A stretch of 64,000 bases of DNA from Actinotalea lenta. Its GTDB lineage: Bacteria > Actinomycetota > Actinomycetes > Actinomycetales > Cellulomonadaceae. Positions 14,324-51,017 of this stretch are shown piece after piece. The notes beneath the pieces are model-generated. The model had not been told where the DNA came from and did not search any database. It saw nothing but the letters and a program-made list of their open reading frames with translations. The DNA lies in NCBI RefSeq assembly GCF_030586465.1, contig NZ_JAUQYP010000001.1, forward strand, positions 558,001-622,000. The letters run 5' to 3'. The translations under genes were made by a program, and so were the position numbers. The first letter of the stretch is position 1; each line of letters begins with the position of its first letter.

Positions 14324-14349
14324 CTCACACCGGGCCCGCACCTGCCGAT
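14324..14349 (+). promoter_or_regulatory. FliA-type promoter of the M15 carboxypeptidase gene
   Basis: CTCACA (14324-14329), 14-nt spacer, GCCGAT (14344-14349), the same two boxes and spacing as the other flagellar promoters in this window, here on the plus strand. It lies 25 nt upstream of the GTG at 14374. This places the peptidase gene in the FliA regulon (inference). Confidence 0.7.
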
Positions 14350-14373
14350 GGGAACCCTGTCGAGAGGGGGCAC

Positions 14374-14988
14374 GTGGACGCCATCACCGCGATCAACCAG
14401 CGCATCGCCGAGATCCAGGCCACGATCGACGGCCTCGCCGCACGCCCGGTGGGCGCCGTGGCGACGTCCTCGGCCAGCTTCGCCGACGCGCTCAGCGCGG
14501 TGAACGCCACCGACTCCGTCGCCGGCCTCGCCCCCGTGGGTGCTGCCTCCCTGACCGACGTCGGTGCCGGCGGGTCGCGGGTCAACGCCGACAACGTGCC
14601 ACTCGCCTACCTCCCGTACGGCAACGGGAAGGTCCCGCTGTCCCAGCTGAGCCCTGTCGAGGGGACCTCGGCGCGGCTGTGGCCGCCGGCGGCGCGCTCG
14701 TTCGAGGCGATGCGGGCCGCCGCCGGCGCGGACGGGATGTCGATCGGCGTCACCGACTCCTACCGCCCCTACGACGCGCAGGTGGACGTCGCCGCGCGCA
14801 AGGGCCTGTACTCCCAGGGCGGCCTCGCCGCCGTGCCGGGAACCAGTCGGCACGGGTGGGGCATGGCGCTGGACCTGAAGCTGGATGCGGACGCGCAGGC
14901 GTGGATGAGCCGGCACGGCACCGAGTACGGCTTCGTCCAGGACGTCCCGCGCGAGCCGTGGCACTGGGAGTACCAGCCGAACCACTGA
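14374..14988 (+). CDS. D-alanyl-D-alanine carboxypeptidase-family (M15/VanY-like) peptidase, flagellum-associated
   Basis: 204 residues. The C-terminal domain has the LAS metallopeptidase zinc signature: GTSRHGWGMALDL (SxHxxGxAxD, about residues 153-167) and EPWHWEY (second His, near the end), plus the substrate motif DSYRPYDAQ. Such enzymes cleave D-Ala-D-Ala or peptide cross-bridges in peptidoglycan. The N-terminus (AITAINQRIAEIQATIDGL) is a short coiled coil followed by a linker; no signal peptide is visible, as expected for export through the flagellar type III system. A FliA-type promoter precedes it and no FlgJ is present, so a role in opening the wall for the rod is likely. GTG start at 14374 after GAGAGGGGG. 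Confidence 0.85.
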   Translation: MDAITAINQRIAEIQATIDGLAARPVGAVATSSASFADALSAVNATDSVAGLAPVGAASLTDVGAGGSRVNADNVPLAYLPYGNGKVPLSQLSPVEGTSARLWPPAARSFEAMRAAAGADGMSIGVTDSYRPYDAQVDVAARKGLYSQGGLAAVPGTSRHGWGMALDLKLDADAQAWMSRHGTEYGFVQDVPREPWHWEYQPNH

Positions 14989-15046
14989 GCGGACCGGTCA
15001 CGGCCACTCGGACGGCAGCGCACCGGGATCGGCGCGTCGGGGGCTG

Positions 15047-15541
15047 TCAGAGGACCAGGACGGAGACCCTGCCCTTGCCGTAGCCGCTGATCGAGAGCTC
15101 CATGTCGACGCGGCGCACGAACGCCAGCACCCACTTGGACACGTCGGCCGGGAGCTGCTCCCCGGGCCGGTAGGACTGGTAGAGCTTCACGTGCGGCGCG
15201 TCGTCCGCGTTGAACACCGACGCCGCGACGTTCAGGACCTCGGCGACGTTCTCGTACAGCGTGTCCGGCAGAACGCCGTCGTCGGCGGCCACCTCGGCCT
15301 GCACGACCGGGATGAGTGCGATGGCGGCGCCGGCGTGCGCCGCCAGGGACAGCTCGAGCAGGACGATCGCCCGCAACGCCATCCGGTCGTCGGTGTACAC
15401 GCCGACGACGGCGCCCGGGGCGGTGCCAGGGTTGACCGCCCCCGTGCCGATGGTCGCCTCGACCTCGCGGCCCAGCAGGCCCTCGAACAGCTCACGCACC
15501 GCCGGCGCGGAGGGCAGTGGTGTTCCCGTCATGGTGCTCAT
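15047..15541 (-). CDS. Divergent CheX/CheC-like protein
   Basis: 164 residues, last gene of the cheB unit. It has no close family match that I can name, but LYENVAEVLNVAASVFN (about residues 105-121) resembles the phosphatase signature (D/S-x3-E-x2-N) of CheC/CheX/FliY, with Glu in the first position, and a Pro lies about 22 residues later. The overall layout (a VVGVYTDDRMALRAIVLL strand-helix, then the E-x2-N helix) fits the CheC fold. It may dephosphorylate one of the two CheY proteins. It starts at ATG 15541 (alternative 15532), 7 bp after the cheY stop. Confidence 0.5.
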   Translation of the reverse strand: MSTMTGTPLPSAPAVRELFEGLLGREVEATIGTGAVNPGTAPGAVVGVYTDDRMALRAIVLLELSLAAHAGAAIALIPVVQAEVAADDGVLPDTLYENVAEVLNVAASVFNADDAPHVKLYQSYRPGEQLPADVSKWVLAFVRRVDMELSISGYGKGRVSVLVL

Positions 15542-15548
15542 CGCCGTC

Positions 15549-15908
15549 TCACGCGAGGAAGGGGTCGATCGTCTCGCGGAACGTGTCCGCCGTGAAGGGC
15601 TTGGCGATGAGGAACAGCGCCCCGGCTGCCTCGGCCTGCTCCCGCATCTCCGGCGAGCCCTCCGAGGTGACGAAGCCGAGCGGGATGTCCATCCCGGCTG
15701 CACGCATCGCGCGGAGCATGTCGATCCCCGTCATCTCGGGCATGTTCCAGTCCGAGAGCACGAGGTCCGGATCCACGTCCCTGGCGAGCTGGAGCGACTC
15801 GGCGCCGTCCGACGCCTCGGTGATGTCCCACTCGTACCCCGCCTGGCGCAGGGTGCGGATGACGATCTGCCGCATCACACGGCTGTCGTCGGCGACGACC
15901 ACTCTCAT
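15549..15908 (-). CDS. cheY: CheY-type single-domain response regulator
   Basis: 119 residues, a receiver domain only. The acidic pocket VVADDS, phospho-acceptor Asp in LVLSDWNMPEMTG (about residue 54), Thr/Ser in FVTSEGS and Lys in IAKPF are all present. When phosphorylated by CheA such proteins bind the flagellar switch (FliM/FliN) to change rotation. This is the second CheY in the cluster. It lies downstream of cheX and before the CheX-like gene. The ATG at 15908 was chosen over 15917 because members begin M-R-V/A. Which of the two CheY proteins binds the motor is not decidable here. Confidence 0.93.
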   Translation of the reverse strand: MRVVVADDSRVMRQIVIRTLRQAGYEWDITEASDGAESLQLARDVDPDLVLSDWNMPEMTGIDMLRAMRAAGMDIPLGFVTSEGSPEMREQAEAAGALFLIAKPFTADTFRETIDPFLA

Positions 15909-15963
15909 GCTGACCACCCGTTCCTGATCGGCCCCACCTCGTGGGCGGGGGTCCCAGCGTCGA

Positions 15964-16425
15964 TCACGGCAGGCTCCACAACGAGATGCCGAGAGGCCGG
16001 CCGCGCCACGCGAACTGCGCGTCGTGGAGCAGCACCGCGCCGTCGGCCGGCGGCTCCGCCGCGACCTGCGGAAGCGTGAGTGGACCCGGATCCGGGACCA
16101 GTGCCTTGACGTTGCCTCCCACGACGTTGGCGATCTCGCCCACGGCGTCGACGAAGTCCGCGTCCGAGACCTCCTCGTCCTGCGCCATCATGAGGAGCGC
16201 CCGGGTGAGCAGCATCGCCGTCTCGTGCTCGGTGCCGAGCATCACCCGTCCGGGATGCTCCCCGTGGACGTCGACCCACGCGTACGTCGCGTCGGCCGGG
16301 GCCTCGACGTCCTCGACGGACGGCTGGAGTGCGCCGGGCTCCGGGTCGATCATCGCCGAGAACACCTCCTCGGCGATGGCGAAGACCGTCTCGGAGAACA
16401 CGCTCATGTCGATCGCGGCGCTCAT
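15964..16425 (-). CDS. cheX: CheX-type chemotaxis phosphatase
   Basis: 153 residues. The CheX/CheC helix FVDAVGEIANVVGGNVKAL carries the D-x3-E-x2-N signature whose Glu and Asn hydrolyse CheY phosphate. Upstream, YAWVDVHGEHPGRVMLGTEHETAM fits the first beta sheet of the domain. It has one active-site helix, as in CheX. It sits between the two cheY genes, with its start overlapping the upstream cheY stop (ATGA, 16422-16425). No CheZ is present, so this is the likely signal-termination enzyme. Confidence 0.85.
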   Translation of the reverse strand: MSAAIDMSVFSETVFAIAEEVFSAMIDPEPGALQPSVEDVEAPADATYAWVDVHGEHPGRVMLGTEHETAMLLTRALLMMAQDEEVSDADFVDAVGEIANVVGGNVKALVPDPGPLTLPQVAAEPPADGAVLLHDAQFAWRGRPLGISLWSLP

Positions 16426-16805
16426 GCCGACTCCTCGTATTCGACCAGCCCGAGCAGCTGGAGCTTGTCCCGGATGGCGTCCGGGGTGAACGGCTTGATG
16501 AGGTACTCGTGCGCTCCGGCGGCGAGTGCCTTGACGATCTGGCTGTGCTCGCTCTCGGTCGTCACCATCATCAGCGTGATGTCCCGCCAGTCCGGGTTCT
16601 CCCGGGCCGCGACCACGAACTCGTAGCCCGTCATGACCGGCATGTTCCAGTCGATGCAGGCCAGCTCGACCGGGCCCTCCTCCTCCAGGACGTCGAGGGC
16701 CGCCTGTCCGTGCTCCGCCTCGAGCGTCTCGAATCCCAGCGCCCGCAGCGCGGCCACGACGATGCGCCGCATCGTGCGCGAGTCGTCGATCACCAGTGCT
16801 CTCAT
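16422..16805 (-). CDS. cheY: CheY-type response regulator
   Basis: 127 residues, receiver domain only. Acidic pair VIDDS (residues 5-9), phospho-acceptor Asp in CIDWNMPVMTG (about 52), Thr in MVTTESE and Lys in YLIKPFT. It is coupled on both sides by 4-nt overlaps: with cheR (16802-16805) and cheX (16422-16425). Position directly after cheB-cheR and before cheX supports a role as a main chemotaxis regulator. Paralogous to the CheY at 15549-15908, but the two are clearly diverged. Confidence 0.94.
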   Translation of the reverse strand: MRALVIDDSRTMRRIVVAALRALGFETLEAEHGQAALDVLEEEGPVELACIDWNMPVMTGYEFVVAARENPDWRDITLMMVTTESEHSQIVKALAAGAHEYLIKPFTPDAIRDKLQLLGLVEYEESA

Positions 16806-17623
16806 GCTGCCCTCCTGGCTGCGAGTCGGTAGACGGAACCACGCTCGTGGCTGACCCGCTCCCAACCGTCGTCGATCCCGATGGTCGTCTCGGCCGCCCC
16901 CAGCAGCAGGTAGCCGCCCGGTCTGATCGCCTGACTCACCCGGCGCAGCACGTCGCGCTTGGTGGCCAGGTCGAAGTAGATGAGCACGTTGCGCAGGAAC
17001 ACCACGTCGAAGGGGCCACCGCCGGGCGGGGCCTCGAGCAGGTTGTGCCGCGCGAACGTGGTGGCGGCGCGCAGCGCGGCGGCGACCTCCCAGTCCGCGC
17101 CCTGCCGGGTGAAGTGCTTGACCAGCATCGGCGCCGGCACCCCACGGTTGACCTCGAGCTGGTTGTACCGGCCAGCCCTGGCCCGGTCGACCATCTTCTG
17201 GTTCAGGTCCGTGCCCAGGATCTGCACTCGCCTCGTGGTCACCAGGTCCTCGAGGGTCATCGCGATGGAGTAGGGCTCCTGGCCGCTCGAGCACGCGGCG
17301 GACCAGATCTTGAGCACGGCACCGGGCCGCTGCGCGAGCAGCTCGGGCACGATGTGCCTGCTCAGCGTCGTGAAGGGTTGGGCGTCGCGAAACCAGGACG
17401 TCTCGTTGGTCGTCAACGCCTCCACCACCGCCTCGAGCGAGGCGGGGCTGGCGACCTGCCGCACGCCGCGCACGTAGGCGTCCACGTCCATCGATCCGGT
17501 GGCCCGCGCCAGCGGCATCAGGCGACTCTCGACCAGATACTCCTTGCCGGCCTCCAGCTGGATGGCACTGCGCCTGCGCACCAGGTCCGCGACCCAGGCG
17601 AAGGTGTCCGGAGCCAGGGTCAT
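16802..17623 (-). CDS. cheR: Chemoreceptor glutamate methyltransferase CheR
   Basis: 273 residues. CheR uses S-adenosylmethionine to methylate receptor glutamates during adaptation. The N-terminal helical domain (FAWVADLVRRRSAIQLEAGKEYLVESRL) is followed by TNETSWFRD, the SAM motif IWSAACSSGQEPYSIAM (about 105-121), GTDLNQKMVDRA, and FDVVFLRNVLIYF. These are the standard CheR blocks. There is no C-terminal TPR. Start and stop overlap cheB and cheY (ATGA at 17620-17623 and 16802-16805). Confidence 0.96.
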   Translation of the reverse strand: MTLAPDTFAWVADLVRRRSAIQLEAGKEYLVESRLMPLARATGSMDVDAYVRGVRQVASPASLEAVVEALTTNETSWFRDAQPFTTLSRHIVPELLAQRPGAVLKIWSAACSSGQEPYSIAMTLEDLVTTRRVQILGTDLNQKMVDRARAGRYNQLEVNRGVPAPMLVKHFTRQGADWEVAAALRAATTFARHNLLEAPPGGGPFDVVFLRNVLIYFDLATKRDVLRRVSQAIRPGGYLLLGAAETTIGIDDGWERVSHERGSVYRLAARRAA

Positions 17624-18735
17624 CGCGGGCCTCCCACGTGCTGCTGATCGGGGAGCCCGACGCCGCGCAGCACGGCCTGGGCGATCTCGGTGATGGGCAG
17701 CACGGCGTGGGCGAGCCCCGCAGTGGCGACCGCTCCCGGCATGCCCCACACCACGCTGGTGGGCTCGTCCTGCACGATCACCGAGCCGCCGGCGGCCACC
17801 AGCGCCTGGCTGCCCGTGCGACCGTCGGAGCCCATGCCGGTGAGCACCACGCCCAGCAGGTCGCCACCGAAGACCACGACCGCGGACCTGAACATCACGT
17901 CCACGGCCGGGCGGCAGAAGTTGACCGGGGGATCCTGCTGCAGGTGCGTCCGGGCACCCGACGCGGTGCGCCGTACCTCCAGGTGCTGGTCGCCCGGGGC
18001 GACGTACACCCAGCCGGGCTGCAGGTCCATCCCCTCGGTCGCCTCGACGACGCGGTTCGGACCCAGCCGGTCCAGACGGGCGGCGAGCTGTCGGGTGAAC
18101 ACCGGCGGCATGTGCTGGACCACGAGCATGGGCACCGGCAGCGGCCGGTTGAGCCCGGTCAGGACGGTGGACAGCGCCTCCGGGCCCCCCGTCGAGGAAC
18201 CCAGGACGACGGCCCGCGGCCGGGACGGCCGCGCCGGCGCCGGACGCAGCCGGACGGCGCGCTGCACGGCCGGGTGCGGGACGGGAACGGCTGACTGCCG
18301 GGGGGCCGCTGCCCGCGGGAGGCCGGGTTTGCGCACCAGGGCCTTGAGACGGGGGATCAGCTCGTCGGCGACCCGGGCCAGGGACTCCTGCACGCTCCCG
18401 ACGTTCGCCGGCTTGGTGACGTAGTCCGTCGCACCTGCGGCCAGGGCGTCCAGTGTGGCCGCCGCGCCGCGCTCGGTGAGCGTGGAGAACATGATGATGG
18501 GCATCCGATGGCCGTCACGGCGCAGGGCGCGCACCGCCTCGATGCCCGTCATGACCGGCATCTCGATGTCCATGGTCACGGCGTCCGGCTTGAGCTGGGC
18601 CACCTTGCTCAGCGCGATCTGGCCGTTCGCCGCGACGCCCACGACGTCGATGGCAGGGTCCGAGGACAGGGCGTCGGTGACGAGGCGGCGCACGACGACG
18701 GAGTCGTCGACGACCAGCACCGTGATGCGTGACAC
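17620..18735 (-). CDS. cheB: Chemotaxis response regulator / methylesterase CheB
   Basis: 371 residues. An N-terminal receiver (VVDDS, phospho-acceptor Asp in TMDIEMPVMTG) is joined by a Pro/Arg-rich linker (about 135-175) to the methylesterase domain. That domain has the catalytic triad Ser (GSSTGGPEAL), His (VVQHMPPVFT) and Asp (TGMGSDGRTG). CheB removes methyl groups from the receptors and is activated by CheA. First gene of the minus-strand unit cheB-cheR-cheY-cheX-cheY-(cheX-like). A FliA-type promoter lies 47 bp upstream (18782-18807). Confidence 0.97.
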   Translation of the reverse strand: MSRITVLVVDDSVVVRRLVTDALSSDPAIDVVGVAANGQIALSKVAQLKPDAVTMDIEMPVMTGIEAVRALRRDGHRMPIIMFSTLTERGAAATLDALAAGATDYVTKPANVGSVQESLARVADELIPRLKALVRKPGLPRAAAPRQSAVPVPHPAVQRAVRLRPAPARPSRPRAVVLGSSTGGPEALSTVLTGLNRPLPVPMLVVQHMPPVFTRQLAARLDRLGPNRVVEATEGMDLQPGWVYVAPGDQHLEVRRTASGARTHLQQDPPVNFCRPAVDVMFRSAVVVFGGDLLGVVLTGMGSDGRTGSQALVAAGGSVIVQDEPTSVVWGMPGAVATAGLAHAVLPITEIAQAVLRGVGLPDQQHVGGPR

Positions 18736-18781
18736 GCGCGCCTCCTCGTGAACGCCGCGGCTGGTCCGCGGCAGGGATCCG

Positions 18782-18807
18782 ATCGGCCGTGACGGGCCGG
18801 TGTTGAG
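18782..18807 (-). promoter_or_regulatory. FliA-type promoter of the cheB unit
   Basis: On the minus strand CTCAAC (18802-18807), 14-nt spacer, GCCGAT (18782-18787), between the mcp stop and the cheB start. Box sequences and spacing are identical to those before fliC and flgB. Confidence 0.75.
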
Positions 18808-18814
18808 TGGTGGG

Positions 18815-23466: not shown

Positions 23467-23492
23467 ATCGGTCGCCGGGGCGCCGTGATGAG
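23467..23492 (-). promoter_or_regulatory. FliA-type promoter of cheA-cheW-mcp
   Basis: On the minus strand CTCATC (23487-23492), 14-nt spacer, ACCGAT (23467-23472), about 50 bp before the cheA start. One mismatch in the -10 box (A for G) relative to the other sites; spacing is identical. Confidence 0.65.
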
Positions 23493-23604: not shown

Positions 23605-23844
23605 TCAGGTCGTCGGCGGCCGCAGCGCTCGAAGTGACTCCACCGTCGCCTCGTCGCCCCCGGAGCGGGCGGCTTCCTCGTTGGCCCGCTTGACGGCCTC
23701 GAGGACCTCGGCCCGGTTCACCCGGACCGACCGGGGCGCGTCGATCCCGATGCGGACCCCGTCGCTGCGCACGTCGATCACGGTGATGACGATGTCGTCA
23801 CCGATGATCAGGCGCTCACCGACGCGGCGCGACAGGACCAGCAT
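23605..23844 (-). CDS. csrA: Carbon storage regulator CsrA
   Basis: 79 residues. Starts MLVLSRRVGERLIIGDDIVI, followed by the RNA-binding strands and RVNRAEVLEAVKRANEEA. The family Arg in the RAEV region that contacts GGA motifs is present. CsrA represses translation of target mRNAs; in Gram-positives it targets flagellin mRNA and is sequestered by FliW, which is encoded at 53859-54296. Last gene of the flbD-to-flhF unit, 49 bp after flhF. The C-terminal 25 residues are longer than in E. coli CsrA (61 residues). Confidence 0.96.
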   Translation of the reverse strand: MLVLSRRVGERLIIGDDIVITVIDVRSDGVRIGIDAPRSVRVNRAEVLEAVKRANEEAARSGGDEATVESLRALRPPTT

Positions 23845-23893: not shown

Positions 23894-25228
23894 TCAGTCC
23901 CAGCGGGCGTCGTCCGCGAGACGCTCGCCGAGGACCGCCGCCCACACCACGGGGGAGGCGGGCAGGCCGTCGAGCCAGCCCACCGGGACGCCGAGGTTGA
24001 GCACCGTGCCGGGCGCCTGGGCGTCGAACGTGTGGGCCGCGGCCACCGCGTCGAACGGCCTGCGGGCCCCCACGGCGCGCAGCCACCGCCGGATCTGCAC
24101 GCCGCGCAGCCGCGCGTCGACCGCCGCCCACGCCTCGTCCGGTGCGAGCGAGTCCAGCAGCAGAGCGCCCGCAGCCGTGCCCGCGACTCCGAGGGCGACC
24201 ACGAGCGGAGCGTCCTGCGGGACGCGCTCACGCAGCCGGCCGGCCGCCGCCGTCGTCTGGACGCGGCGCCCGTGCCCCGGCAGGGCGTCGACCTCGCCTG
24301 CCAGCACCACGTCGTGGGGGGCCAGCCCGGCGCGCTGCGCCATCTGCGTCGCGGTCCGCACCGCGAGCTCGGCAGGCCCGGCCACCACCACCATGGTGCC
24401 AGGCACGAGGTGCGTGCCCCGGGGCCGGTCGAAGGTCCGCACCAGGCCGGAGAGTGGGACGTCGGCGTTCGGGTCGAACGCAGCGAGCAGCCGGGTCGGG
24501 ATTCCGAGCTCGAGCAGCGCCGCGACGCTCGCCCCGGGCCGGACCTCGTCCGGGACGGTCGGACCCGCGTCCCAGGTCTCGGCGGCGTCGGAGGGTCCGG
24601 CCCCGGCGGTCTCACCGGGACCGGGCTCCGGGGGCGAGGAGGGCGCGGAGGCGGCTGCGGAGCCTCCTGGCCGGGCGATCCGGGGGGGCGCAGGCGCCGG
24701 GGCCCAGGCAGGACCCGGGTCGACCCGCTCGGCGCTGCCCGACCCGGTCCCCGCGTCGGGCGTAGCCGGCCCGGTCCCCGCGTCGGGCGTGGCCGGCCCG
24801 GTCCCTGCGTCGGGCGTAGCCGGAGCGGCCGGCGCGTCGGAGGCTGCCGGCGCGTCGGCCTGCGGCTCGGCCGTGATGCGCTGGACCGAGGCGAGCACCT
24901 CGGCGAAGGCAGACCCGGCCGTGGAGACCCGGGGGTCGGCCTCAACCGCGTCGGCGGCCGCGAGCAGGGCGTCGAGCCCGACCGGCTCGGCCGTTGTTCC
25001 GGTGGGGCGGTGCGCCTGCTCGGGTGCGGGGCGGGCGCGAGTACCTCGCCGCGGCTTGTCGGGCACCTCGACCGTCAGCTCGTAGTGCTCGCGTGCGAAG
25101 AACCCGGCGATGCCGCCCGTCCGGACACGCTCGGCACGCACGATCTGGGCGTCCGGGCCCATCTCGTCCCGGACCCGGAGCATGAGGGAACGCAGATCCT
25201 GCCCGTCAAGCAGCAATCGCGTGGACAT
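23894..25228 (-). CDS. flhF: FlhF-like protein with degenerate GTPase domain
   Basis: 444 residues. The N-terminus (LLLDGQDLRSLMLRVRDEMGPDAQIVRAERV, then GGIAGFFAREHYELTVEV) and the position after flhA indicate FlhF. Residues about 60-215 are a Pro/Ala/Gly linker with three copies of ATPDAGTGP (DNA about 24745-24830). The SRP-type GTPase region is recognisable by order, but the P-loop is lost: VVVAGPAELAVRTATQMAQRAG stands where G-x4-GKT should be, so GTP hydrolysis is unlikely. FlhF normally sets flagellar position and number with FlhG, which is absent here. Overlaps flhA by 23 bp. Confidence 0.7.
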   Translation of the reverse strand: MSTRLLLDGQDLRSLMLRVRDEMGPDAQIVRAERVRTGGIAGFFAREHYELTVEVPDKPRRGTRARPAPEQAHRPTGTTAEPVGLDALLAAADAVEADPRVSTAGSAFAEVLASVQRITAEPQADAPAASDAPAAPATPDAGTGPATPDAGTGPATPDAGTGSGSAERVDPGPAWAPAPAPPRIARPGGSAAASAPSSPPEPGPGETAGAGPSDAAETWDAGPTVPDEVRPGASVAALLELGIPTRLLAAFDPNADVPLSGLVRTFDRPRGTHLVPGTMVVVAGPAELAVRTATQMAQRAGLAPHDVVLAGEVDALPGHGRRVQTTAAAGRLRERVPQDAPLVVALGVAGTAAGALLLDSLAPDEAWAAVDARLRGVQIRRWLRAVGARRPFDAVAAAHTFDAQAPGTVLNLGVPVGWLDGLPASPVVWAAVLGERLADDARWD

Positions 25229-32551: not shown

Positions 32552-32690
32552 GCGCTGCCCATCGGCCGGTTGCGGGCAGGCATGAGGCGTCGCGAGCCAC
32601 AGGTTCGGCGCAGGCGTCGAATCACCCGGCAAGGTGCCCCACCGGCGTACCGTCGGGGCGGGACCGGTCACGGTGGACCGGTGATCGGAC

Positions 32691-35258: not shown

Positions 35259-35312
35259 CGTGTCCATCCCTGGTCTGCATCCGGGCCCTTCCATGAGCCC
35301 TTCGGAGGTCTG

Positions 35313-35338
35313 ATCGGCCGGGGGGCGCGACCCCTGAG
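35313..35338 (-). promoter_or_regulatory. FliA-type promoter of the flbD-motA-...-csrA unit
   Basis: On the minus strand CTCAGG (35333-35338), 14-nt spacer, GCCGAT (35313-35318). The -35 box is preceded by GGCAAACC, a sequence also found before the flgB promoter. It lies 55 bp before the flbD start. Confidence 0.72.
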
Positions 35339-35426: not shown

Positions 35427-35465
35427 GTGAAGCGATTCCGTCGGATAGCGACGGTTTCGCTTCAC
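35427..35465 (-). terminator. Hairpin repeat, copy 1 (probable terminator)
   Basis: GTGAAGCGA (35427-35435) pairs with TCGCTTCAC (35457-35465), and CCGTCG (35438-35443) with CGACGG (35449-35454), around the loop GATAG. It overlaps the stop codon of the AbiEi/DUF559-type gene. A 22-bp core (35440-35461) recurs exactly at 36485-36506 on the other side of that gene. Confidence 0.7.
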
Positions 35466-36409
35466 CCCCTGCCCACGCCGCAGCCAGCGCCGCACGGGTG
35501 AGGGGTGCCCGCCCAGCCACGCGCCGCGAGCGCGGTAGCGACCTGGGCCGCGGTCCGGCACGGGGCGACGGCCACGTGTCGCCAGCGGTACCGCAGCGTC
35601 AGGTCGCCACGGGCGATCAATACGGCGTTGTCCCGCCAGACGTCGGCGTCGCGGCGTGCTGCTGCGTGCCAGAGGGCACCGTCGAGTTCGACAACGACGC
35701 CGAAGTCGCGATAGCGCGTGTCAGCACGGACCCACTGGCCGTCGACGACGTCACGCACCTGGAGGTCGGCGGTCGGCAGCCGGTGACGCCGCTCGACGTC
35801 GCGGTGGTACCGCAGCTCGAGGGGCGACTCGACGCCTGCCTCCGCGAGCCCGCACAGCTCGAGGGCCAGAGCGCGCCCGCGGACCGTCGGCCGATCCAGG
35901 AGCGCCTCACGGACCTGCGCAGGCGGGGCACCGGCCCGCGAGGCGTCCGTGAGGAGCCCGACGACGTCGTCCGTCGAGTCCGCCCCCGCGATCAGGTCCA
36001 CGATCGTGTGGACCAGCTCGACCGTGCGCAGGCGGCCGAACGCGGGGGGCATCGGTTCCCGGCGGTAGATCCGAACCCCGGCCGAGGGGCGCACGGCGCG
36101 CGAGCGCGGGATGCTGAGCTCGATCGGCCGCGGCGGACGGTCGAGCATCTCGTGGCGATAGGCCGCGCTCCGGTGGCTCAGCGCAGCCCCGGCACCCGCG
36201 TACAGGAGCGCTGCTCGCGCCGAGGCCTGCCAGCCCACGGGTCCGCTGAACGTCGCCAGCACTCCGTGGTGCAGGCGCTGCCAGTGGCCGGCACGAACCC
36301 GCCGGTCGAGCCACGAGCCCGAGAAGCCAAGGCTGAGCGCCTGCCCCGTCGTCACGACGCCGTCCTGCCGAGCCGCCAGCCTCGCCAGCGCGTCGTCCGT
36401 CCTCGCCAC
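35462..36409 (-). CDS. AbiEi-type N-terminal / DUF559-like C-terminal domain protein
   Basis: 315 residues from GTG 36409, which has a GGGGGG stretch before it; longer starts would run through the hairpin repeat. Residues 1-55 (TDDALARLAARQDGVVTTGQAL, WLDRRVRAGHWQRLHHGVLA) match the winged-helix N-terminus of AbiEi-type antitoxin regulators. The C-terminal 100 residues (VRADTRYRDFGVVVELDGALWH, then DVWRDNAVLIARGDLTLRYRW) resemble the DUF559/Vsr endonuclease-like fold. Such genes are common orphans in actinobacteria. No partner toxin is adjacent. It interrupts the flagellar island and is flanked by a hairpin repeat, so it may have been inserted. Confidence 0.7.
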   Translation of the reverse strand: MARTDDALARLAARQDGVVTTGQALSLGFSGSWLDRRVRAGHWQRLHHGVLATFSGPVGWQASARAALLYAGAGAALSHRSAAYRHEMLDRPPRPIELSIPRSRAVRPSAGVRIYRREPMPPAFGRLRTVELVHTIVDLIAGADSTDDVVGLLTDASRAGAPPAQVREALLDRPTVRGRALALELCGLAEAGVESPLELRYHRDVERRHRLPTADLQVRDVVDGQWVRADTRYRDFGVVVELDGALWHAAARRDADVWRDNAVLIARGDLTLRYRWRHVAVAPCRTAAQVATALAARGWAGTPHPCGAGCGVGRG

Positions 36410-45979: not shown

Positions 45980-46055
45980 GGCCGCCACCTCTCGAGGTGC
46001 GCAAGGGCGGCCGTTCCATGGCCTCCGGGGCGAGCGATCCGTGCTCGCCGGGACC

Positions 46056-46081
46056 ATCGGCGCCGCTGCGGCGGCGTTGAG
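46056..46081 (-). promoter_or_regulatory. FliA-type promoter of the flgB unit
   Basis: On the minus strand CTCAAC (46076-46081), 14-nt spacer, GCCGAT (46056-46061), 77 bp upstream of the flgB GTG. A GGCAAACC element precedes the -35 box, as at the flbD promoter. Confidence 0.75.
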
Positions 46082-46187: not shown

Positions 46188-46493
46188 TCAGGCGGGGAGG
46201 TCGACGTAGACCGGAGCCGACTCGGCGCGGCCGCGCAGGGTGCGGGTCGCCGCGAGCTGGCGGCGGCTGAGGGCAGCGGCCTCGGCCAGGCGGCGGGAGA
46301 CCTCGAGTTGACGGTTGAGGATCGCGCGGGCCCGGTCCGCCAGGGCGGCGGGCATCGGTCCCAGGTGGCTCGGCGGGGCCCAGCGGTCCGGCGGGTTCTC
46401 CGCGATGCGGTCGAGGGTGAGCATCTCCTCCGCGACCACCAGGTCCAGCTCGAGCGCGTCCAGGGCCTCGCGCCAGGCGTCGTCGAAGGTCAC
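46188..46493 (-). CDS. FliT-like small flagellar protein
   Basis: 101 residues from GTG 46493, one base after the fliS stop. Helical and Ala/Leu-rich: TFDDAWREALDALELDLVVAEEML, then RARAILNRQLEVSRRLAEAAAL. Position after fliD-fliS suggests a FliT-type chaperone for the filament cap FliD, but the sequence alone is too divergent to prove it. It could instead be an unrelated late flagellar protein. It is the last gene before the flgB promoter region. Confidence 0.65.
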   Translation of the reverse strand: MTFDDAWREALDALELDLVVAEEMLTLDRIAENPPDRWAPPSHLGPMPAALADRARAILNRQLEVSRRLAEAAALSRRQLAATRTLRGRAESAPVYVDLPA

Positions 46494-46494
46494 G

Positions 46495-46929
46495 TCAGCC
46501 GACCCCGAGCACGCCACCGGCGGCGGCGTAGGCGCCGCGCTGCGCCGGGACGGTGGGCGTCAGGGACGCGGCCGCGTCGTGCCACGCGTCACGCAGGGGC
46601 TCCACGACGCGCCGGCACCCGGCGGTGCGCTCCGGGTCGCCGGACATGTTCGCCCCGACCAGCTCGGTGAGCAGGAAGGAGTACACGCTCATGAGCTGCT
46701 GGCCCCCGTCCCACGCGTCGGTGTCCAGGGTCCCGGAGAGCTCGCTGACGATGTCCTGCGCGTGCACCAGCTGCTGGCCCGCGCCGGGCCGGTCGCCGGC
46801 GCGCTGGAGCTCCTCGGCCCGCTGCAGGTCCAGGACCAGGCGGTCGTAGAGCATCGTGAGCAGGGTGGCCGGGCTCGCGGTGCGCACGGTGTCATCCAGG
46901 TACCGGGCCCGCACTGCTGCGTAGTTCAT
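46495..46929 (-). CDS. fliS: Flagellin export chaperone FliS
   Basis: 144 residues. MNYAAVRARYLDDTVRTASPATLLTMLYDRLVLDLQRAEEL is the FliS signature (Y-x3-...-ASPxxLLxMLYD). FliS binds the flagellin C-terminus and prevents premature polymerisation. The end is an Ala/Gly tail. It lies 17 bp after fliD and just before the FliT-like gene. Confidence 0.96.
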   Translation of the reverse strand: MNYAAVRARYLDDTVRTASPATLLTMLYDRLVLDLQRAEELQRAGDRPGAGQQLVHAQDIVSELSGTLDTDAWDGGQQLMSVYSFLLTELVGANMSGDPERTAGCRRVVEPLRDAWHDAAASLTPTVPAQRGAYAAAGGVLGVG

Positions 46930-46946
46930 CGTGTCCCCTCCATGGT

Positions 46947-48299
46947 TCACGCGGACGCGCCGGACGACGCGCTGAGCGAGCTCAGCTGCGAGGCCAGCCA
47001 GGTGGACTGCGACTTGAGGTTCGACAGGGCCGACTCCATCGCGGTGTACGTCGTCTCCAGGGTCGACCGGCGCAGCGCCAGGCGGTCGTCCCAGCTGCTG
47101 ATCTGGTCCGAGAGGTCCTTGACCATGGACTGCTGCGACTGGATCTCCAGGGTCAGGGACCCGTAACCAGAGTTGGAGGCCTGGTCGCCGACCTGCTGGA
47201 CCCGGCCGGCCATGCCCGAGAGCAGGTCCTGGACCTTGCCGGGGTCCGCCGCGAGCGCGGAGGAGAACGTGCCCGAGTCGAGTGCGAACGTGCCGTCCTG
47301 GCTGAGGGTGATGCCGATCTGGGCGAGCGACATGCCGTTGACCGACGTCGAGCCCGCGTCCATCAGGTCCTGCTGGAGCAGCATGGTGGTCGAGTCCCCG
47401 GCGAACAGGCCACCGGTGACGACGGTCCGGCCCGTGGCGTCGGTGGTCGTCTTGGACGCCCGCCGCGACTGGATCTCCGAGAGTGTGGCGTTCAGGTTGT
47501 TCACCAGCCCGGACGCGAGCTTGGTGAGCGCGTCGTCGTCCCGCGCGACGGTCACGGTCACCGGGTTCGTCTCGACCGCGCTCACGGTCAGGTCCACGCC
47601 CCCGAGCACGCCGGAGAACGTGTTGGAGGCCTGGGTGACCGTCTGCGCTGCCGGCGTCCCGGCGAACAGCGTGATGCTGGCGTCCGACGCCGCCCGGATC
47701 TGGGTGGTGGTCAGGTCGGTCCACGTGCCGGTGGAGTCCTGGGACTGCACGGTGAACGCGTTCGCCTGCCCGGTGTCGGTGCCGGTGAGCTGGAGGTAGG
47801 TGGTGCCGTTCGCGCTCACGGTCGTGGCCGTCACGCCGGCGCCGGCACCGTTGAACGCCGCGACGATGTCCGCCATCGAGGTCGACTGCGCCGTGACGTT
47901 GTACGTCTGGCCGCCGCGGATCACCTGGAAGGTGGGCGGGATGGTGTAGAAGCTCGCCGGCATCTGCACCAGGGACGACTGCGACTGGGCGACGGAGTCC
48001 ACGGTGAACGTCACGGACGACGGCGTCGCATTCGAGGTGGTCGTCGCGGTGACGGAGCTGGCGCTCGACGTCGCGCTGACGGCCTTCCACGAGTCGGGGT
48101 CCGCCGCGGTCCTGGCGGCGGTGGTCAGGGACGCGACCTTGGTGTTCAGCGACTGGAGCGCCGAGACGAGCGAGGTCGCGGTGGACTGCTTGTGCTTCAG
48201 GAGCGTCTGGGGCGCCGCCTCGACCTGCATCAGCTGGTTGATGATGGACGTGGTGTCCATCCCGCTGACGATCCCCGAGATCGACGTGCTGCCTGCCAC
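46947..48299 (-). CDS. fliD: Flagellar filament cap protein FliD
   Basis: 450 residues from GTG 48299, with AAGGGAGAG upstream. The N-terminal domain (STSISGIVSGMDTTSIINQLMQVEAAPQTLLKHK) and C-terminal coiled coil (QISSWDDRLALRRSTLETTYTAMESALSNLKSQSTWLASQL) are the FliD signature. The middle includes a flagellin-hook IN-like region. FliD caps the filament and helps flagellin fold. A strong hairpin separates it from fliC, so it needs read-through or its own promoter. Confidence 0.95.
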   Translation of the reverse strand: MAGSTSISGIVSGMDTTSIINQLMQVEAAPQTLLKHKQSTATSLVSALQSLNTKVASLTTAARTAADPDSWKAVSATSSASSVTATTTSNATPSSVTFTVDSVAQSQSSLVQMPASFYTIPPTFQVIRGGQTYNVTAQSTSMADIVAAFNGAGAGVTATTVSANGTTYLQLTGTDTGQANAFTVQSQDSTGTWTDLTTTQIRAASDASITLFAGTPAAQTVTQASNTFSGVLGGVDLTVSAVETNPVTVTVARDDDALTKLASGLVNNLNATLSEIQSRRASKTTTDATGRTVVTGGLFAGDSTTMLLQQDLMDAGSTSVNGMSLAQIGITLSQDGTFALDSGTFSSALAADPGKVQDLLSGMAGRVQQVGDQASNSGYGSLTLEIQSQQSMVKDLSDQISSWDDRLALRRSTLETTYTAMESALSNLKSQSTWLASQLSSLSASSGASA

Positions 48300-48325
48300 G
48301 GGGCTCTCCCTTCCGACGTTGAGCG

Positions 48326-48361
48326 CGACCGGCGGTGGACGGGGTCGTCCACCGCCGGTCG
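48326..48361 (-). terminator. Strong terminator after fliC
   Basis: A perfect 15-bp stem, CGACCGGCGGTGGAC (48326-48340) and GTCCACCGCCGGTCG (48347-48361), with a 6-nt loop, 24 bp beyond the fliC stop. This would stop most transcripts and set a high fliC-to-fliD ratio. Confidence 0.88.
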
Positions 48362-48384
48362 TGCGGGCTATGCCCTGCGGTGGA

Positions 48385-49578
48385 TCACCGGAGCAGCTGC
48401 AGCACGCTCTGCGGCAGCGACTTGGCCTGGGCCAGCATCGCGGTGCCGGCCTGGGACAGGATCTGCGCCCGCGTGAACTGCACCATCTCGGCAGCCATGT
48501 CGGTGTCGCGGATCCGGCTCTCCGACGCCGTGAGGTTCTCGTTGGCGACGTTGAGGTTGTTGATGGTGTGGTCGAAACGGTTCTGGATCGCACCGAGGTT
48601 GGACCGCTGGGTCGAGACCTTGGTGATGGCCGAGTCGATCAGGTTGATCGCCTGGGTCGCACCGGAGGCCTGCTGGAAGACCGGCTCCGTAGCTGCCGCT
48701 TCAGTGGCAGAGGCACCCGCGGCCGGGGTGGCCCCCGTGAAGGTCAGGCCCGTGGCGGTTGCTGCCACCGTGACGGCACCCGAACCGAGCGCCGCGTCAG
48801 CGGCCGACTGGATCGCGGCGACGGATGACGCCGTGTCCGTGGCGCTGGAGAAGTCCACCGAGGTCAGATCGAACGACTTCGAGCCGACCGACACCGTGCC
48901 GTTGAGCGCCGTGAACTTCGAAGCGTCGTAGGCGGTGAAGTCAACTGTCGCCCCACCAGGGCCGTTGACCGTCAGAACGGCCGGAGTCCCCCCCGCCGCC
49001 GCGGTCGTCAGGACTGCGGTGCTGGCGTTGCTCGCCGCCGTGGTGACGTCGACGCCGGCGACCCCGAGAGCGGTGGCGCTCATGTTGCCGATGGTCACGC
49101 CGATCTTGTCGTCCGCCGAGGTGTTGGCGCCGACCTGGAAGGACCCGGTGTAGGAGCCGTCCAGGAGCTTGGAGCCGTTGAACTGCGTGGTGGACGCGAT
49201 GCGGTCGAGCTCCTTGTTGAGCTCCGTCATCTCGGACTGGATCGACGCCTTGGCGTCCGTGGACAGGCCACCGTCGTTCGCGGCCTGGACGGACAGGGTG
49301 CGCATGCGCTGGAGGATCGAGTGCGTCTCGGTGAGGGCACCCTCAGCCGTCTGGACGACGCTGATGCCGTCCTGGGCGTTGCGCACGGCCTGCTGGGTGC
49401 CGTTGATCTGCGAGCGCAGACCCTCGGAGATCGACAGGCCGGCCGCGTCGTCCGCAGCGCGGTTGATCCGCAGACCCGAGGACAGCTTCTCCAGGGAGCT
49501 GTTCAGCGAGTTCTGCGTGTTGGACAGGTTGCGGTACGCGTTGAGCGCCGCGATGTTGGTGTTGACCGAGAGACCCAT
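48385..49578 (-). CDS. fliC: Flagellin
   Basis: 397 residues. The conserved N-terminal D0/D1 (MGLSVNTNIAALNAYRNLSNTQ, SSGLRINRAADDAAGLSISEGLRSQI) and C-terminal D0/D1 (RSNLGAIQNRFDHTINNLNVANENLTASESRIRDTDMAAEM, ending QAKSLPQSVLQLLR) frame a variable Ala/Thr-rich surface domain. ATG 49578 has AAGGAGG before it. It has its own FliA-type promoter and a strong terminator. CsrA may act on the leader, where GGAGG occurs, with FliW as antagonist. Confidence 0.98.
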   Translation of the reverse strand: MGLSVNTNIAALNAYRNLSNTQNSLNSSLEKLSSGLRINRAADDAAGLSISEGLRSQINGTQQAVRNAQDGISVVQTAEGALTETHSILQRMRTLSVQAANDGGLSTDAKASIQSEMTELNKELDRIASTTQFNGSKLLDGSYTGSFQVGANTSADDKIGVTIGNMSATALGVAGVDVTTAASNASTAVLTTAAAGGTPAVLTVNGPGGATVDFTAYDASKFTALNGTVSVGSKSFDLTSVDFSSATDTASSVAAIQSAADAALGSGAVTVAATATGLTFTGATPAAGASATEAAATEPVFQQASGATQAINLIDSAITKVSTQRSNLGAIQNRFDHTINNLNVANENLTASESRIRDTDMAAEMVQFTRAQILSQAGTAMLAQAKSLPQSVLQLLR

Positions 49579-49642
49579 GGTGGAACTCCTCCTTGATTCG
49601 GGTCGAATACCTGCCGCCCCTCCATGGGCGAGCACCGGGATG

Positions 49643-49668
49643 ATCGGCGCGGCGGGTGCGGTGTTGAG
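49643..49668 (-). promoter_or_regulatory. FliA-type promoter of fliC
   Basis: On the minus strand CTCAAC (49663-49668), 14-nt spacer, GCCGAT (49643-49648), 65 bp upstream of the flagellin start. Identical boxes to the cheB and flgB sites. Flagellin is the classic FliA target, so this site anchors the motif. Confidence 0.8.
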
Positions 49669-49707
49669 GGATTCGCGTTGATCAGATCGGGTGATCCGAG
49701 ACGGCGA

Positions 49708-49739
49708 GACGCCCGCCGGATGGGCTACCGGCGGGCGTC
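49708..49739 (-). terminator. Terminator of fliA
   Basis: A perfect 12-bp stem, GACGCCCGCCGG (49708-49719) and CCGGCGGGCGTC (49728-49739), with an 8-nt loop, 14 bp beyond the sigma-factor stop. Confidence 0.82.
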
Positions 49740-49753
49740 CGGCGGTGCTGGGA

Positions 49754-50641
49754 TCAGCACACCGCCCGCTCGACCTCGGGGACCGAGGTCGAGTAGGAGT
49801 CGTAGGCCGCCGCGGCGACCGACCGCTGCGTCGGCACCGTCGTGACGGTGCTGACCTGGGCGCTGGTCGCGGCGCGCGCGGCGACCTCGGCGAAGTAGGC
49901 GCGGCGCCGGCGGGCGGCCACTCCGTCCGGGCGGGAGCCCTCGGCCACCAGGTCGGGGTCGAGCGAGGCGTTGATGCCGTCCTTGAGCAGGCCGAGCGCC
50001 TCGGTGCGCAGCTGGCTGATCCGGGACTGGGTCACGCCCAGCTCCTCGGCCAGCTCGGCGACCGGACGGTCGCGGAAGAACAGCTCGGTGACGACGTACC
50101 GCAGCCGGTCGGGCAGCGAGTCGACGCCGGCCCGCAGGTACTGCATCTTCTCGTCCACCAGGAGGCTCTCCTCGGGCCCGACCGCCGCGGAGACCACGGT
50201 CTCCGCGATCGAGCCGTCGAAGCCGTCCATGCTCAGCACACGCGTCTCGCCGTCGGACCGGGCCGCGTCGATCTCCTCGACCGGCATGCCCATCGCCTCG
50301 GCGAGCTCGTCGCGGCTCGGGGCGCGGCCGAGCGAGGCCGTCAGCTCGTCCGTGACCTCCGAGAGCTGGCGCGCGCGGCGACGGGCGCCGCGCGAGACCC
50401 AGTCCATCCCCCGCAGCTCGTCGATCAGCGCGCCCTTGATGCGCAGCGCGGCGTAGCGGGCGAAGGGGACACCCGTCGACGCGTCGTAGGCCCGGGCGGC
50501 GCGGACCAGGGCGAGGTGACCGGCCGACACGAGGTCGGCACGGGACACGTGCGCCGGCACGCGGCCGAGCATCGCGTTGACGTGGTAGCCGACGAGCGCC
50601 ATGTGCTCGACGACCAGCGCGTTGGTGGGGTTCTCGTTCAC
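49754..50641 (-). CDS. fliA: FliA/WhiG-type RNA polymerase sigma factor
   Basis: 295 residues from GTG 50641, chosen because upstream codons to 50821 look non-coding; the start is not certain. Sigma-2 (LVSAGHLALVRAARAYDASTGVPFARYAALRIKGALIDELR), sigma-3 and sigma-4 (LPDRLRYVVTELFFRDRPVAELAEELGVTQSRISQLRTEAL) are present. It directs polymerase to flagellar and chemotaxis promoters. The C-terminal 60 residues (about 236-295) after sigma-4 are an Arg/Ala/Ser-rich extension, unusual for FliA. No FlgM anti-sigma gene is visible. It is divergent from flgN. Confidence 0.94.
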   Translation of the reverse strand: MNENPTNALVVEHMALVGYHVNAMLGRVPAHVSRADLVSAGHLALVRAARAYDASTGVPFARYAALRIKGALIDELRGMDWVSRGARRRARQLSEVTDELTASLGRAPSRDELAEAMGMPVEEIDAARSDGETRVLSMDGFDGSIAETVVSAAVGPEESLLVDEKMQYLRAGVDSLPDRLRYVVTELFFRDRPVAELAEELGVTQSRISQLRTEALGLLKDGINASLDPDLVAEGSRPDGVAARRRRAYFAEVAARAATSAQVSTVTTVPTQRSVAAAAYDSYSTSVPEVERAVC

Positions 50642-51017
50642 GGGGTGTGATTCGGGGGGCGGCGTGAAGCACTTGAGACCGTCCGCGGGTGACGTCGCTA
50701 CGCTGCTCCGTTCGGTGGACAACCGGGGCGCGGGTGAGTCGCCACCCTTGAACCCAGATGTCCGGTTCCGAATCCGGACAGACCCTGCCCGGTCCGACTT
50801 GTCGGCTGTGACGAGCGCCACATCCCGAACCCCTCATGCGCCCCCGGCCTTCTCATCAGGTGAGCAGGTGAACGCTCACAGAGCGCTCGGGGGACTCCTT
50901 CCGGCAGAAGTCCTCCGAAAACCGTCACATCGGCCCGTCGACAGCCGATGGGCGGTGCGACAGACACTCCGCACGCGTGGCGGGTCGCCGCCGAGCGACG
51001 GGACGAAGGGTGGTCCG
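50642..51017. other. Divergent fliA/flgN intergenic region
   Basis: 376 bp that hold the flgN promoter (50924-50949) and the unidentified fliA promoter. No extra gene is convincing here. The fliA start itself may lie further upstream than annotated, since in-frame codons continue to 50821. Confidence 0.5.
50924..50949 (+). promoter_or_regulatory. FliA-type promoter of flgN-flgK-flgL-fliW
   Basis: GTCACA (50924-50929), 14-nt spacer, GCCGAT (50944-50949) on the plus strand, 68 bp before the flgN start. The first -35 base deviates (G for C); the -10 box and spacing match. Confidence 0.68.

Follow-up and report, generated by a model that had tools for sequence, protein, structure and literature searches.

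In the textbook account of flagellar assembly, early and late parts are timed by transcription, through promoter classes and the export of FlgM. A cAMP-receptor site stands at the head of the Escherichia coli cascade, which runs from CRP through flhDC to fliA. Promoters of FliA (sigma-28) pair a GCCGAT -10 element with a TAAA- or TCAA-like -35 element at a fixed distance. The published consensus is TAAA / GCCGATAA (PMC8325347). In the sections of the reports drawn on here, Actinoplanes missouriensis is described as having no hierarchical coordination, with 33 flagellar genes transcribed simultaneously (PMC8306008) and placed under WhiG/FliA-type sigma factors (Jang et al. 2016, as cited in PMC8306008 and PMC8325347). 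The sections cited for CsrA state that in E. coli it protects the flhDC mRNA, where it is bound at two sites near the 5' end (PMC7652899), and that in Campylobacter jejuni it binds basal-body and hook mRNAs, with flgI, flgH and flgE strongly enriched and flgB not (1.6x, 1.6x, 0.7x and 0.9x) (PMC4894983).

We analyzed the motility island of Actinotalea lenta within a 64,000-nucleotide stretch of its genome (the window) and compared it with the islands of its relatives. The sites, their spacing, their conservation and the hairpins described below are read directly from the DNA (Table 1). A single promoter type serves early and late operons, and their timing would therefore have to come from elsewhere; conserved CsrA-type hairpins show where to look. 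These hairpins and a CRP-type site above fliA represent two putative layers of control that a first-pass annotation of the window had missed.

Table 1. Features of the window, by position. Relatives scored are those bearing FliA; most come from one family, so the counts are not independent.
Feature	Position	Strand	Sequence or identification	Occurrence
FliA-type promoter, vanY-like carboxypeptidase (14374-14988)	14324..14349	+	exact CTCA-N16-GCCGAT	also in G008, the only relative in which this start was scorable
Intragenic STCA-N16-RCCGAT match	17127	-		
FliA-type promoter, cheB-cheR-cheY-cheX	18782..18807	-	exact	<=1 mismatch in 3/6 relatives scored
Intragenic STCA-N16-RCCGAT matches	19641, 32175, 45595, 49079	+		
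FliA-type promoter, cheA-cheW-mcp	23467..23492	-	ACCGAT, one base off	17/17 relatives scored
csrA	23605..23844	-	79 aa; Pfam PF02599	
FliA-type promoter, fliM	32561..32586	-	exact	<=1 mismatch in 14/17 relatives scored
CsrA-type hairpin, flbD leader	35283..35300	-	GGGCUC-AUGGAA-GGGCCC	17/20 genomes
FliA-type promoter, flbD-motA-motB-fliL	35313..35338	-	exact	17/19 relatives scored
Second CsrA-type hairpin, flgB leader	46009..46023	-	GGCC-AUGGAAC-GGCC	
First CsrA-type hairpin, flgB leader	46029..46049	-	core GAGC-ACGGAUC-GCUC	conserved core
FliA-type promoter, flgB-flgC-fliE-fliF and following genes	46056..46081	-	exact	17/19 relatives scored
CsrA-type hairpin, fliC leader	49614..49631	-	UCGCCC-AUGGAG-GGGCGG	20/20 genomes; 30/30 rows with named loci
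FliA-type promoter, fliC-fliD-fliS	49643..49668	-	exact	17/19 relatives scored
fliA (FliA/WhiG-type sigma factor)	49754..50641	-	295 aa; Pfam sigma-70 regions 2, 3, 4; between fliC and flgN	
Variant FliA-like promoter, fliA	50651..50677	-	CTCAAG..CCCGAA; 17 nt between CTCA and CCCGAA	
Inverted repeat, between CRP-type site and fliA	50759..50780	-	TGTCCGG-N8-CCGGACA	
CRP-type palindrome, fliA-flgN intergenic	50807..50822	-	TGTGGCGCTCGTCACA	genome has 7 distinct TGTGRN6TCACA places, this one included
FliA-type promoter, flgN-flgK-flgL	50924..50949	+	GTCA, one mismatch	14/20 relatives
fliW	53892..54296	+	Pfam PF02623; relatives are CsrA antagonists	

The FliA-type promoter motif and its reach

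The first-pass annotation had listed seven sites with an invariant 14-nt spacing (CTCANN-N14), 25 to 77 bp before suitably oriented genes, and all of this was borne out. Each site is present where it had been placed, on the right strand, five of them exact and two one base off (23467 and 50924), and the -10 element ends 24 to 76 nt before the called start codon (vanY 24, cheB 46, cheA 50, flbD 45, flgB 76, fliC 64, flgN 68). In the relatives, 94 regions upstream of cheA, flbD, flgB, fliC and flgN hold 59 exact CTCA..CCGAT matches at N16 and no more than 1 at any other spacing between 8 and 25; permitting one mismatch gives 82 matches at N16 and 26 at N14. The N14 matches (e.g., CACA in place of CTCA) share bases with the CTCACA of the N16 site. 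As a control, 541 other gene starts gave 14 exact N16 matches, 12 of which precede fliM.

The motif also lies far above its background frequency. When as many as two mismatches are permitted, 119 matches fall in the window and 81.6 (sd 10.2) in shuffled sequence, and the stricter STCA-N16-RCCGAT, found 77 times in the 3.31-Mb genome, occurs 13 times in the 64-kb window where 1.5 are expected (binomial p = 3e-9). These 13 comprise the seven noted sites, one before fliM and five that are intragenic, so that one match alone is weak evidence and the motif by itself overpredicts. Because CTCA-N16-NCCGAT equals TCAN-N15-NCCGAT, it fits the sigma-28 arrangement of -35 and -10 elements at a fixed distance, with the spacer at its classical length, and the CTCA-N16-GCCGAT sites, which are conserved at a constant spacing before early and late operons alike, look like the FliA promoters they had been taken for. 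The string GGCAAACC, noted before the -35 element at flbD and flgB, is literally there in the window but is not a conserved element in relatives, which show a looser A-rich pair 4 to 5 nt 5' of CTCA, the two positions being A at 74% and 53% in a matrix of 109 sites.

The count of seven units was too low. With the fliM site (gene identity confirmed by PF02154), the N16 units number at least eight, plus fliA. The fliM -10 element ends 9 nt 5' of a GTG, which predicts a leaderless mRNA, and in the 17 matched relatives, read by eye, a GTG lies 8 to 10 nt past the -10 element; the automated first-start distance was 0 to 3 in seven rows with an earlier GTG and 7 in one with an ATG ahead of the GTG.

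Elsewhere in this genome, and also in a second species, diguanylate-cyclase and chemoreceptor genes have the motif upstream. Outside the window, 12 of the 60 matches read (64 in total) lie 5 to 110 nt before a same-strand called gene start, among them 5 GGDEF and 2 MCP genes; the genome has 27 GGDEF and 10 MCP matches overall. In the relative G099, 16 of the 30 matches read (31 in total) lie 5 to 115 nt before a gene: 4 flagellar or che by position, 4 GGDEF (one partial and below cut-off), 3 MCP, and the remainder a Cache-HAMP receptor, HDOD, GT2, VanY and a 90-aa protein. The GGDEF loci of relatives (28 loci, 14 scorable starts) gave 0 exact and 4 one-mismatch sites, and the exact motif also stands at 3 of the 52 neighboring genes in GGDEF and MCP loci.

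One promoter type with a fixed spacer is common to early (flgB, flbD) and late (fliC, flgN) operons, which supports a flat flagellar transcription, as the first-pass annotation had suggested. FlgM was likewise not found: PF04316 matches nothing in the genome, with a model that recovers only 3/14 controls, so a divergent FlgM may escape it. Flatness of this kind is not new, given the earlier report for A. missouriensis, and order may persist after transcription through the CsrA-type hairpins; the step at which the parts are ordered has probably shifted from transcription to RNA.

Dual promoters occur in some enteric operons, and the FliA sites at flgB and flbD could in the same way be auxiliary, a housekeeping or regulator-dependent promoter acting early and FliA adding a boost later. 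We regard this as unlikely because the leader hairpins in the window begin 6 to 12 nt after the -10 element, and the flgB core starts 9 nt after it, at the predicted first mRNA base, keeping a distance of 9 or 10 nt in 23/28 rows. The start codons of fliA and fliM lie at a like distance, and this steadiness hints at a transcription start shortly after the FliA -10 element.

fliA and its upstream region

The best NCBIfam model for FliA is FliA_WhiG (E 6e-48; 163 bits, under the curated cut-off of 190). An N16 site was not found in the region upstream of fliA. The variant promoter there departs in its -35 element (CTCAAG), spacer (N17) and -10 element (CGAA/G), is present in 13 of 20 relatives and absent from 7, and ends 9 nt 5' of the GTG, so that a leaderless fliA mRNA is predicted. 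A genome search for CTCAAG-N17-CGARA, a pattern outside which the window's own copy (CGAAT) falls, returned 5 matches against 3 in the control, no clear excess. The promoter consensus in A. missouriensis is reportedly CTCA(N15-17)GCCGAA, which would nearly cover the fliA variant too; a literature search on that string found no relevant paper.

With at most one mismatch, a CRP-type palindrome stands at fliA in 16 of the 21 genomes compared, the window among them, and at 0 of 355 other gene starts; it is absent at fliA in the other 5. The window copy is one mismatch from TGTGA-N6-TCACA. Measured to the aligned start of fliA, the site is 149 to 195 nt upstream, and its center in the window is ~173 nt from the GTG. 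This is far for textbook activation of a leaderless fliA promoter, and the site would have to act on an additional promoter or on the divergent flgN. The genome encodes a CRP/FNR-family protein (read from L100, in a search that covered PF00325 matches) that matches solved chains at E 1.5e-81. Elements resembling the inverted repeat between this site and fliA were seen by eye in some relatives.

FliA had been proposed as the sole top regulator of a hierarchy flat at every level, a model that accommodates the shared motif of early and late operons, the failure to find FlgM and the Actinoplanes precedent. The region upstream of fliA has a variant promoter and a conserved CRP-type palindrome but no N16 site; the sequence thus does not place FliA at the top, and FliA appears to give an incomplete account of control; with conserved CsrA-type hairpins in three leaders as well, we consider the model improbable. 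Recognition of some sites, such as the fliA variant, by another FliA-like sigma factor is quite improbable. A sigma paralogue, 35% identical, is encoded at G000:C1:1891065, and the fliA promoter does differ in -35, spacer and -10, but at least nine genomes have an equally strong paralogue match and no strong FliA match, so that the paralogue is not tied to motility, and the variant pattern lacks clear enrichment.

A.GGA hairpins in the fliC, flbD and flgB leaders

An A.GGA sequence in a 6- to 7-nt hairpin loop was found in 57 of 60 fliC, flbD and flgB leaders and at 4 of 582 control starts, the runner-up among 256 loop motifs reaching 4 of 60; the N of the loop varies while the A and the GGA are invariant. 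At least one flgB hairpin is present in 20/20 genomes, and the flgN (0/21) and cheB (0/7) leaders have no A.GGA hairpin. A second A.GGA falls on the Shine-Dalgarno sequence of fliC in 20/20 genomes and near the start of flbD in 19/20. At flgB, a second site overlaps the Shine-Dalgarno sequence in 1/20, and hag-type repression is therefore not claimed for that operon.

The fliC stem covaries, with 18 cells changed on both sides against a shuffled mean of 7.1 (0/500 as high), and flbD does so weakly (3 cells, shuffled mean 0.9, 24/500 as high); the covariation sets omit misfit rows (1/18 for flbD and 3/25 distinct for flgB). Compared with shuffled sequences, the leader folds are not clearly more stable (z -1.48, -0.12 and 0.64). 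A csrA match lies in the islands of 19/20 relatives, and fliW, outside most of the relatives' stretches read, adjoins flgL in many named loci. We take the A.GGA loop hairpin as a CsrA signature in three flagellar mRNAs and predict that CsrA binds there. That the hairpins do other work (mRNA ends, attenuation, ribosome standby) with A.GGA incidental is very unlikely, for although short GC-rich stems are common at such base composition and the fold energies are unremarkable, A.GGA tops all 256 loop motifs (57 against 4) with its A and GGA fixed, the hairpin is missing from the flgN and cheB leaders, and csrA and fliW lie in the island.

A proposed two-layer model and its known counterparts

We consider it probable that a one-sigma FliA regulon, a CRP-type input at fliA and CsrA control of leaders together account for the arrangement. 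FliA would transcribe most or all of the motility island through CTCA-N16-NCCGAT and would drive the scattered chemoreceptor and diguanylate-cyclase genes from the same promoter type. The fliA gene itself would receive two inputs, self-amplification through its weaker, leaderless FliA-like promoter and carbon or energy state through the cAMP-receptor site. With the structural operons on together and FlgM not found, order would be set on the mRNAs: CsrA would bind the A.GGA hairpins, FliW would remove CsrA, and unexported flagellin would hold FliW. The transcription starts, the binding proteins and the direction of each effect we infer from the arrangement of the sites. Repression is predicted at fliC and flbD, since each hairpin there is accompanied by another A.GGA that lies on or close to the ribosome-binding site; at flgB both hairpins are clear of that site and the first stands at what is predicted to be the 5' end of the mRNA, which makes stabilization likelier, as for E. 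coli flhDC.

More tentatively, we think it possible, if somewhat short of probable, that in flagellated actinobacteria like this one a two-layer design replaces the classical hierarchy, in which one sigma factor fires all structural operons, chemoreceptors and diguanylate cyclases together and a CsrA-FliW checkpoint on RNA represses the motor/export operon and protects the 5' end of the first basal-body mRNA. CsrA would then have opposite effects on different flagellar parts and act beyond flagellin. The design is compact, conserved across the family and partly beyond, and testable in a few strains, and through it c-di-GMP synthesis, and probably cAMP as well, would be tied to a motility sigma factor.

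Going by the sections cited, the island resembles A. missouriensis in its FliA/WhiG-type sigma factor and in an apparently non-hierarchical transcription of its flagellar genes, but that organism places them under zoospore developmental control and has three FliA-type sigmas (PMC13293333). In the Rubrobacter WhiG regulon, a FliA-family sigma is likewise suggested for several dgc/pde genes, there with Type IV pili rather than flagella (PMC8325347). As in E. coli, a cAMP-receptor-type site stands at the head and two CsrA-type sites lie near an mRNA 5' end; unlike in E. coli, no FlhDC layer is described here and the CRP-type site stands upstream of fliA itself. The Acidithiobacillus caldus CsrA is reported to act on flgC and motD mRNAs of a csrA-containing flagellar cluster, in another phylum (PMC13029372). 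C. jejuni CsrA-FliW offers ANGGA hexaloops in the flaA leader, kept by compensatory change, in a system that retains its RpoN/FliA hierarchy (PMC4894983); its CsrA binding to basal-body and hook mRNAs is a precedent for action on early flagellar mRNAs. The flagellin leader, with an upstream site and a Shine-Dalgarno site, and the presence of csrA and fliW recall the Bacillus subtilis Hag-FliW-CsrA system, whereas there hag is the flagellar target described and here the flbD and flgB leaders also carry hairpins, flgB two of them and no Shine-Dalgarno site (PMC6529632, PMC7652899).

The motility island and its FliA-type promoters

Gene calls with Pfam and NCBIfam models identify a single motility island in the window (positions 558001-622000 of contig 1; genome size 3.31 Mb). 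It runs from vanY, the che operons, csrA, a weak FlhF match, flhA, flhB, fliR, fliQ, fliP and fliO to fliN, fliM, fliL, motB, motA, flbD, flgE to flgB, fliS, fliD, fliC and fliA, with flgN, flgK, flgL and fliW on the opposite strand, and both csrA and fliW lie inside it. fliH and fliJ are matched by NCBIfam models below cut-off, and the best NCBIfam model for the sigma factor is FliA_WhiG (E 6e-48, under the curated cut-off). The gene at the flhF position scores 29 bits against the FlhF model (cut-off 174) and could be an FlhF that has decayed or diverged; FlhF is reported absent from these actinobacterial classes in passages of a published survey (PMC10746217). Further features in and beside the island are listed in the table. 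We note that flbD is nearer to flgE in several relatives than in the window, and that the relative G008, whose island also has vanY, carries a c-di-GMP-I riboswitch (RF01051; L036:17608-17684).

Coordinates of features in the window
Feature	Position	Strand	Remark
Glycine riboswitch (RF00504)	9411-9497	-	
Ms_IGR-5 sRNA (RF02471)	11745-11950	-	
52-aa ORF	13929-14087		No Pfam hit
c-di-GMP-I-GGC riboswitch (RF03167)	14102-14175	-	Directly upstream of 52-aa ORF; divergent from vanY FliA site
Gene at flhF position	23894-25183	-	No Pfam hit; only residues 2-58 match FlhF model
fliM promoter motif	32561-32586		Exact; ends 9 nt upstream of GTG
AbiEi-antitoxin-like ORF (PF13338)	35462-36409	-	Between flgE and flbD
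101-aa protein	46188-46493	-	Downstream of fliS; no Pfam hit; matched in most relatives' islands
Inverted repeat TGTCCGG-N8-CCGGACA	50759-50780	-	Between CRP-type site and fliA
CRP-type palindrome	50807-50822	-	fliA-flgN intergenic region

The first-pass annotation had listed seven FliA-type promoter sites, and all seven (upstream of vanY, cheB, cheA, flbD, flgB, fliC and flgN) lie exactly where it put them, five matching CTCA-N16-GCCGAT exactly. The degenerate form occurs 77 times genome-wide and 13 times in the window against 1.5 expected. Because 5 of these 13 window matches are intragenic, conservation is a better test than the motif count. In 20 relatives (36-40 kb around fliA each), orthologous starts were mapped and upstream regions scored for CTCA..CCGAT at N16, one mismatch being tolerated; a relative was excluded where its start could not be aligned or its upstream region was not of full length, and n is stated per gene. 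One relative, G079, is absent from most counts: the 40 kb read at its locus (G079:C6:332000-371999; L029, L030) contain fliA and a flgN relative but hardly any further flagellar gene, a possible case of island loss or relocation.

The motif was found upstream of cheA in all 17 relatives scored, of flbD, flgB and fliC in 17/19 each, of flgN in 14/20, of cheB in 3/6 and of vanY in 1/1, and exact matches at other spacings occurred in 0 or 1 of 94 upstream regions. Among other gene starts (n = 541) there were 14 exact matches, 12 of them upstream of fliM, where 12/17 relatives match exactly and 14/17 within one mismatch. A GTG stands 8-10 nt past the fliM motif in the 17 matched relatives, a distance that puts the predicted transcription start on the start codon, and we predict a leaderless fliM mRNA. 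The classical sigma-28 spacer is 15 bases, and the motif, read as TCAN-N15-NCCGAT, has the geometry of classical sigma-28 promoters. The sigma-28 consensus is given as TAAA / GCCGATAA in the passages available from PMC8325347. The element GGCAAACC, considered as a regulator site, is present at two sites and was rejected, as it is not conserved among relatives.

Hairpins in the fliC, flbD and flgB leaders

Among relatives, leader similarity persists downstream of the fliC, flbD and flgB promoters. A hairpin presenting A.GGA in a 6-7-nt loop is found, window included, in 20/20 fliC, 17/20 flbD and 20/20 flgB leaders, compared with 2/18 for cheA, 0/21 for flgN, 0/7 for cheB, 4/582 other starts and 1.1% of random 75-mers. 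A.GGA accounts for 57/60 leaders, the runner-up among all 256 motifs of the same shape for 4/60. Hairpins also occur in Georgenia and Nocardioides loci for both fliC and flgB, and in Quadrisphaera for fliC. In five loci from Actinoplanes and kin (L079, L080, L082, L083, L092) the stretch read has fliA but no flagellar cluster, and the leader comparison therefore covers none of them. A second A.GGA lies on the fliC ribosome-binding site in 20/20 and near the flbD start in 19/20, and is present in 1/20 for flgB. According to passages of PMC4894983 and PMC7652899, the known target of CsrA is ANGGA presented in a hexaloop.

Covariation was computed for the fliC, flbD and first flgB hairpins after omission of rows that misfit the drawn hairpin (one for flbD, three distinct ones for flgB). 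Two-sided changed cells numbered 18 for fliC (shuffled mean 7.1, 0/500 as high), 13 for flgB (7.5, 0/500) and 3 for flbD (0.9, 24/500). The 4-bp core of the first flgB hairpin starts 9 nt past the -10 element in 18/28 rows and 10 nt past it in 5 (11, 11, 12, 12 and 33 nt in the others), the same distance at which the fliA and fliM start codons stand from their -10, and its outer stem pairs are poorly kept. If transcription of flgB does start 9-10 nt past the -10, the mRNA would begin with the hairpin and the outer pairs would be untranscribed. An alternative flgB fold, in which the second hairpin competes with a start-region stem, pairs strongly in the window (0.99) and in the relative G099 (0.96), and is not counted as evidence because it is weaker or absent in many relatives.

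Upstream of fliA and outside the island

The N16 motif was found upstream of fliA in 0/20 relatives. A variant, CTCAAG-N17-CGA[AG], lies near the fliA start codon in 13/20 relatives and the window, 9 nt upstream of it in 10 of these 13 and the window (script count); as a separate regulon it was rejected, since a genome-wide search gave no clear excess. The palindrome TGTGA-N6-TCACA stands ~170 nt upstream of fliA in 12/21 genomes exactly and in 16/21 with at most one mismatch, against 0/355 at the same place upstream of other genes, and occurs 21 times per 842 kb in all islands together; TGTGRN6TCACA has seven distinct places genome-wide. Its distance from fliA is long for direct activation. 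The genome has two PF00325 matches, one in a ROK-like frame (by eye) and one a CRP/FNR-family protein (L100), a candidate binding partner, with matches to the solved chains 3mzh and 3d0s (E 1.5e-81) and 4byy (1e-79), which we take to be M. tuberculosis CRP and C. glutamicum GlxR proteins. Inverted repeats similar to that between the palindrome and fliA occur in some relatives (by eye).

Of 64 motif matches outside the window, 60 were read; 20 are intergenic by gene calls, and 12 sit 5-110 nt upstream of a same-strand gene (five GGDEF, two chemoreceptors, a glycosyltransferase, a DUF222 gene and three without Pfam hit). Scored from the family side, 26 GGDEF starts (from 27 loci) gave 5 exact matches and 8 within one mismatch, 10 chemoreceptor starts 2 and 5, and 52 neighboring genes 3 and 3. 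In G099, with 30 of 31 matches read, 16/30 lie 5-115 nt upstream of a gene: cheB, fliM, flbD and flgB, by position, together with four GGDEF (one partial), four chemoreceptor-type, HDOD, GT2, VanY and 90-aa protein genes. The last three have counterparts behind the motif in the window's genome (one VanY at 161 nt), and the window HDOD gene has only a one-mismatch site 131 nt upstream. The 90-aa protein, conserved in the two species (L102:1294-1563, L254:1222-1491) and without Pfam hit, has the motif 9 nt upstream of its start in both. At GGDEF starts of other relatives (14 scored, 28 loci) there were 0 exact and 4 one-mismatch matches, which counts against a wider GGDEF regulon. For Rubrobacter, the available part of PMC8325347 suggests that WhiG controls dgc/pde genes.

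A proposed scheme and known systems

A profile search of the genome did not find FlgM, in line with its absence from later-branching actinobacterial classes as reported in passages of PMC10746217. We hypothesize that FliA would switch on the structural genes simultaneously, with the CRP-type site possibly feeding fliA, and that CsrA-FliW, acting on the fliC, flbD and flgB leaders through two geometries, is probably the checkpoint that would order their expression. The portions of the open-licence literature available to us mention neither leader hairpins for CsrA nor a CRP-type site upstream of fliA for actinobacteria, nor, for this group, flgB/flbD CsrA-type hairpins in a one-sigma regulon or diguanylate-cyclase members. 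The FliA promoter and flat transcription are of known kinds, and flagellar genes are likewise switched on together in A. missouriensis (PMC8306008). From the parts of the respective papers available, CsrA is known to bind early flagellar mRNAs in C. jejuni (PMC4894983) and is reported to act on such mRNAs in A. caldus (PMC13029372), and in E. coli it protects the flhDC mRNA through two sites close to the 5' end (PMC7652899).
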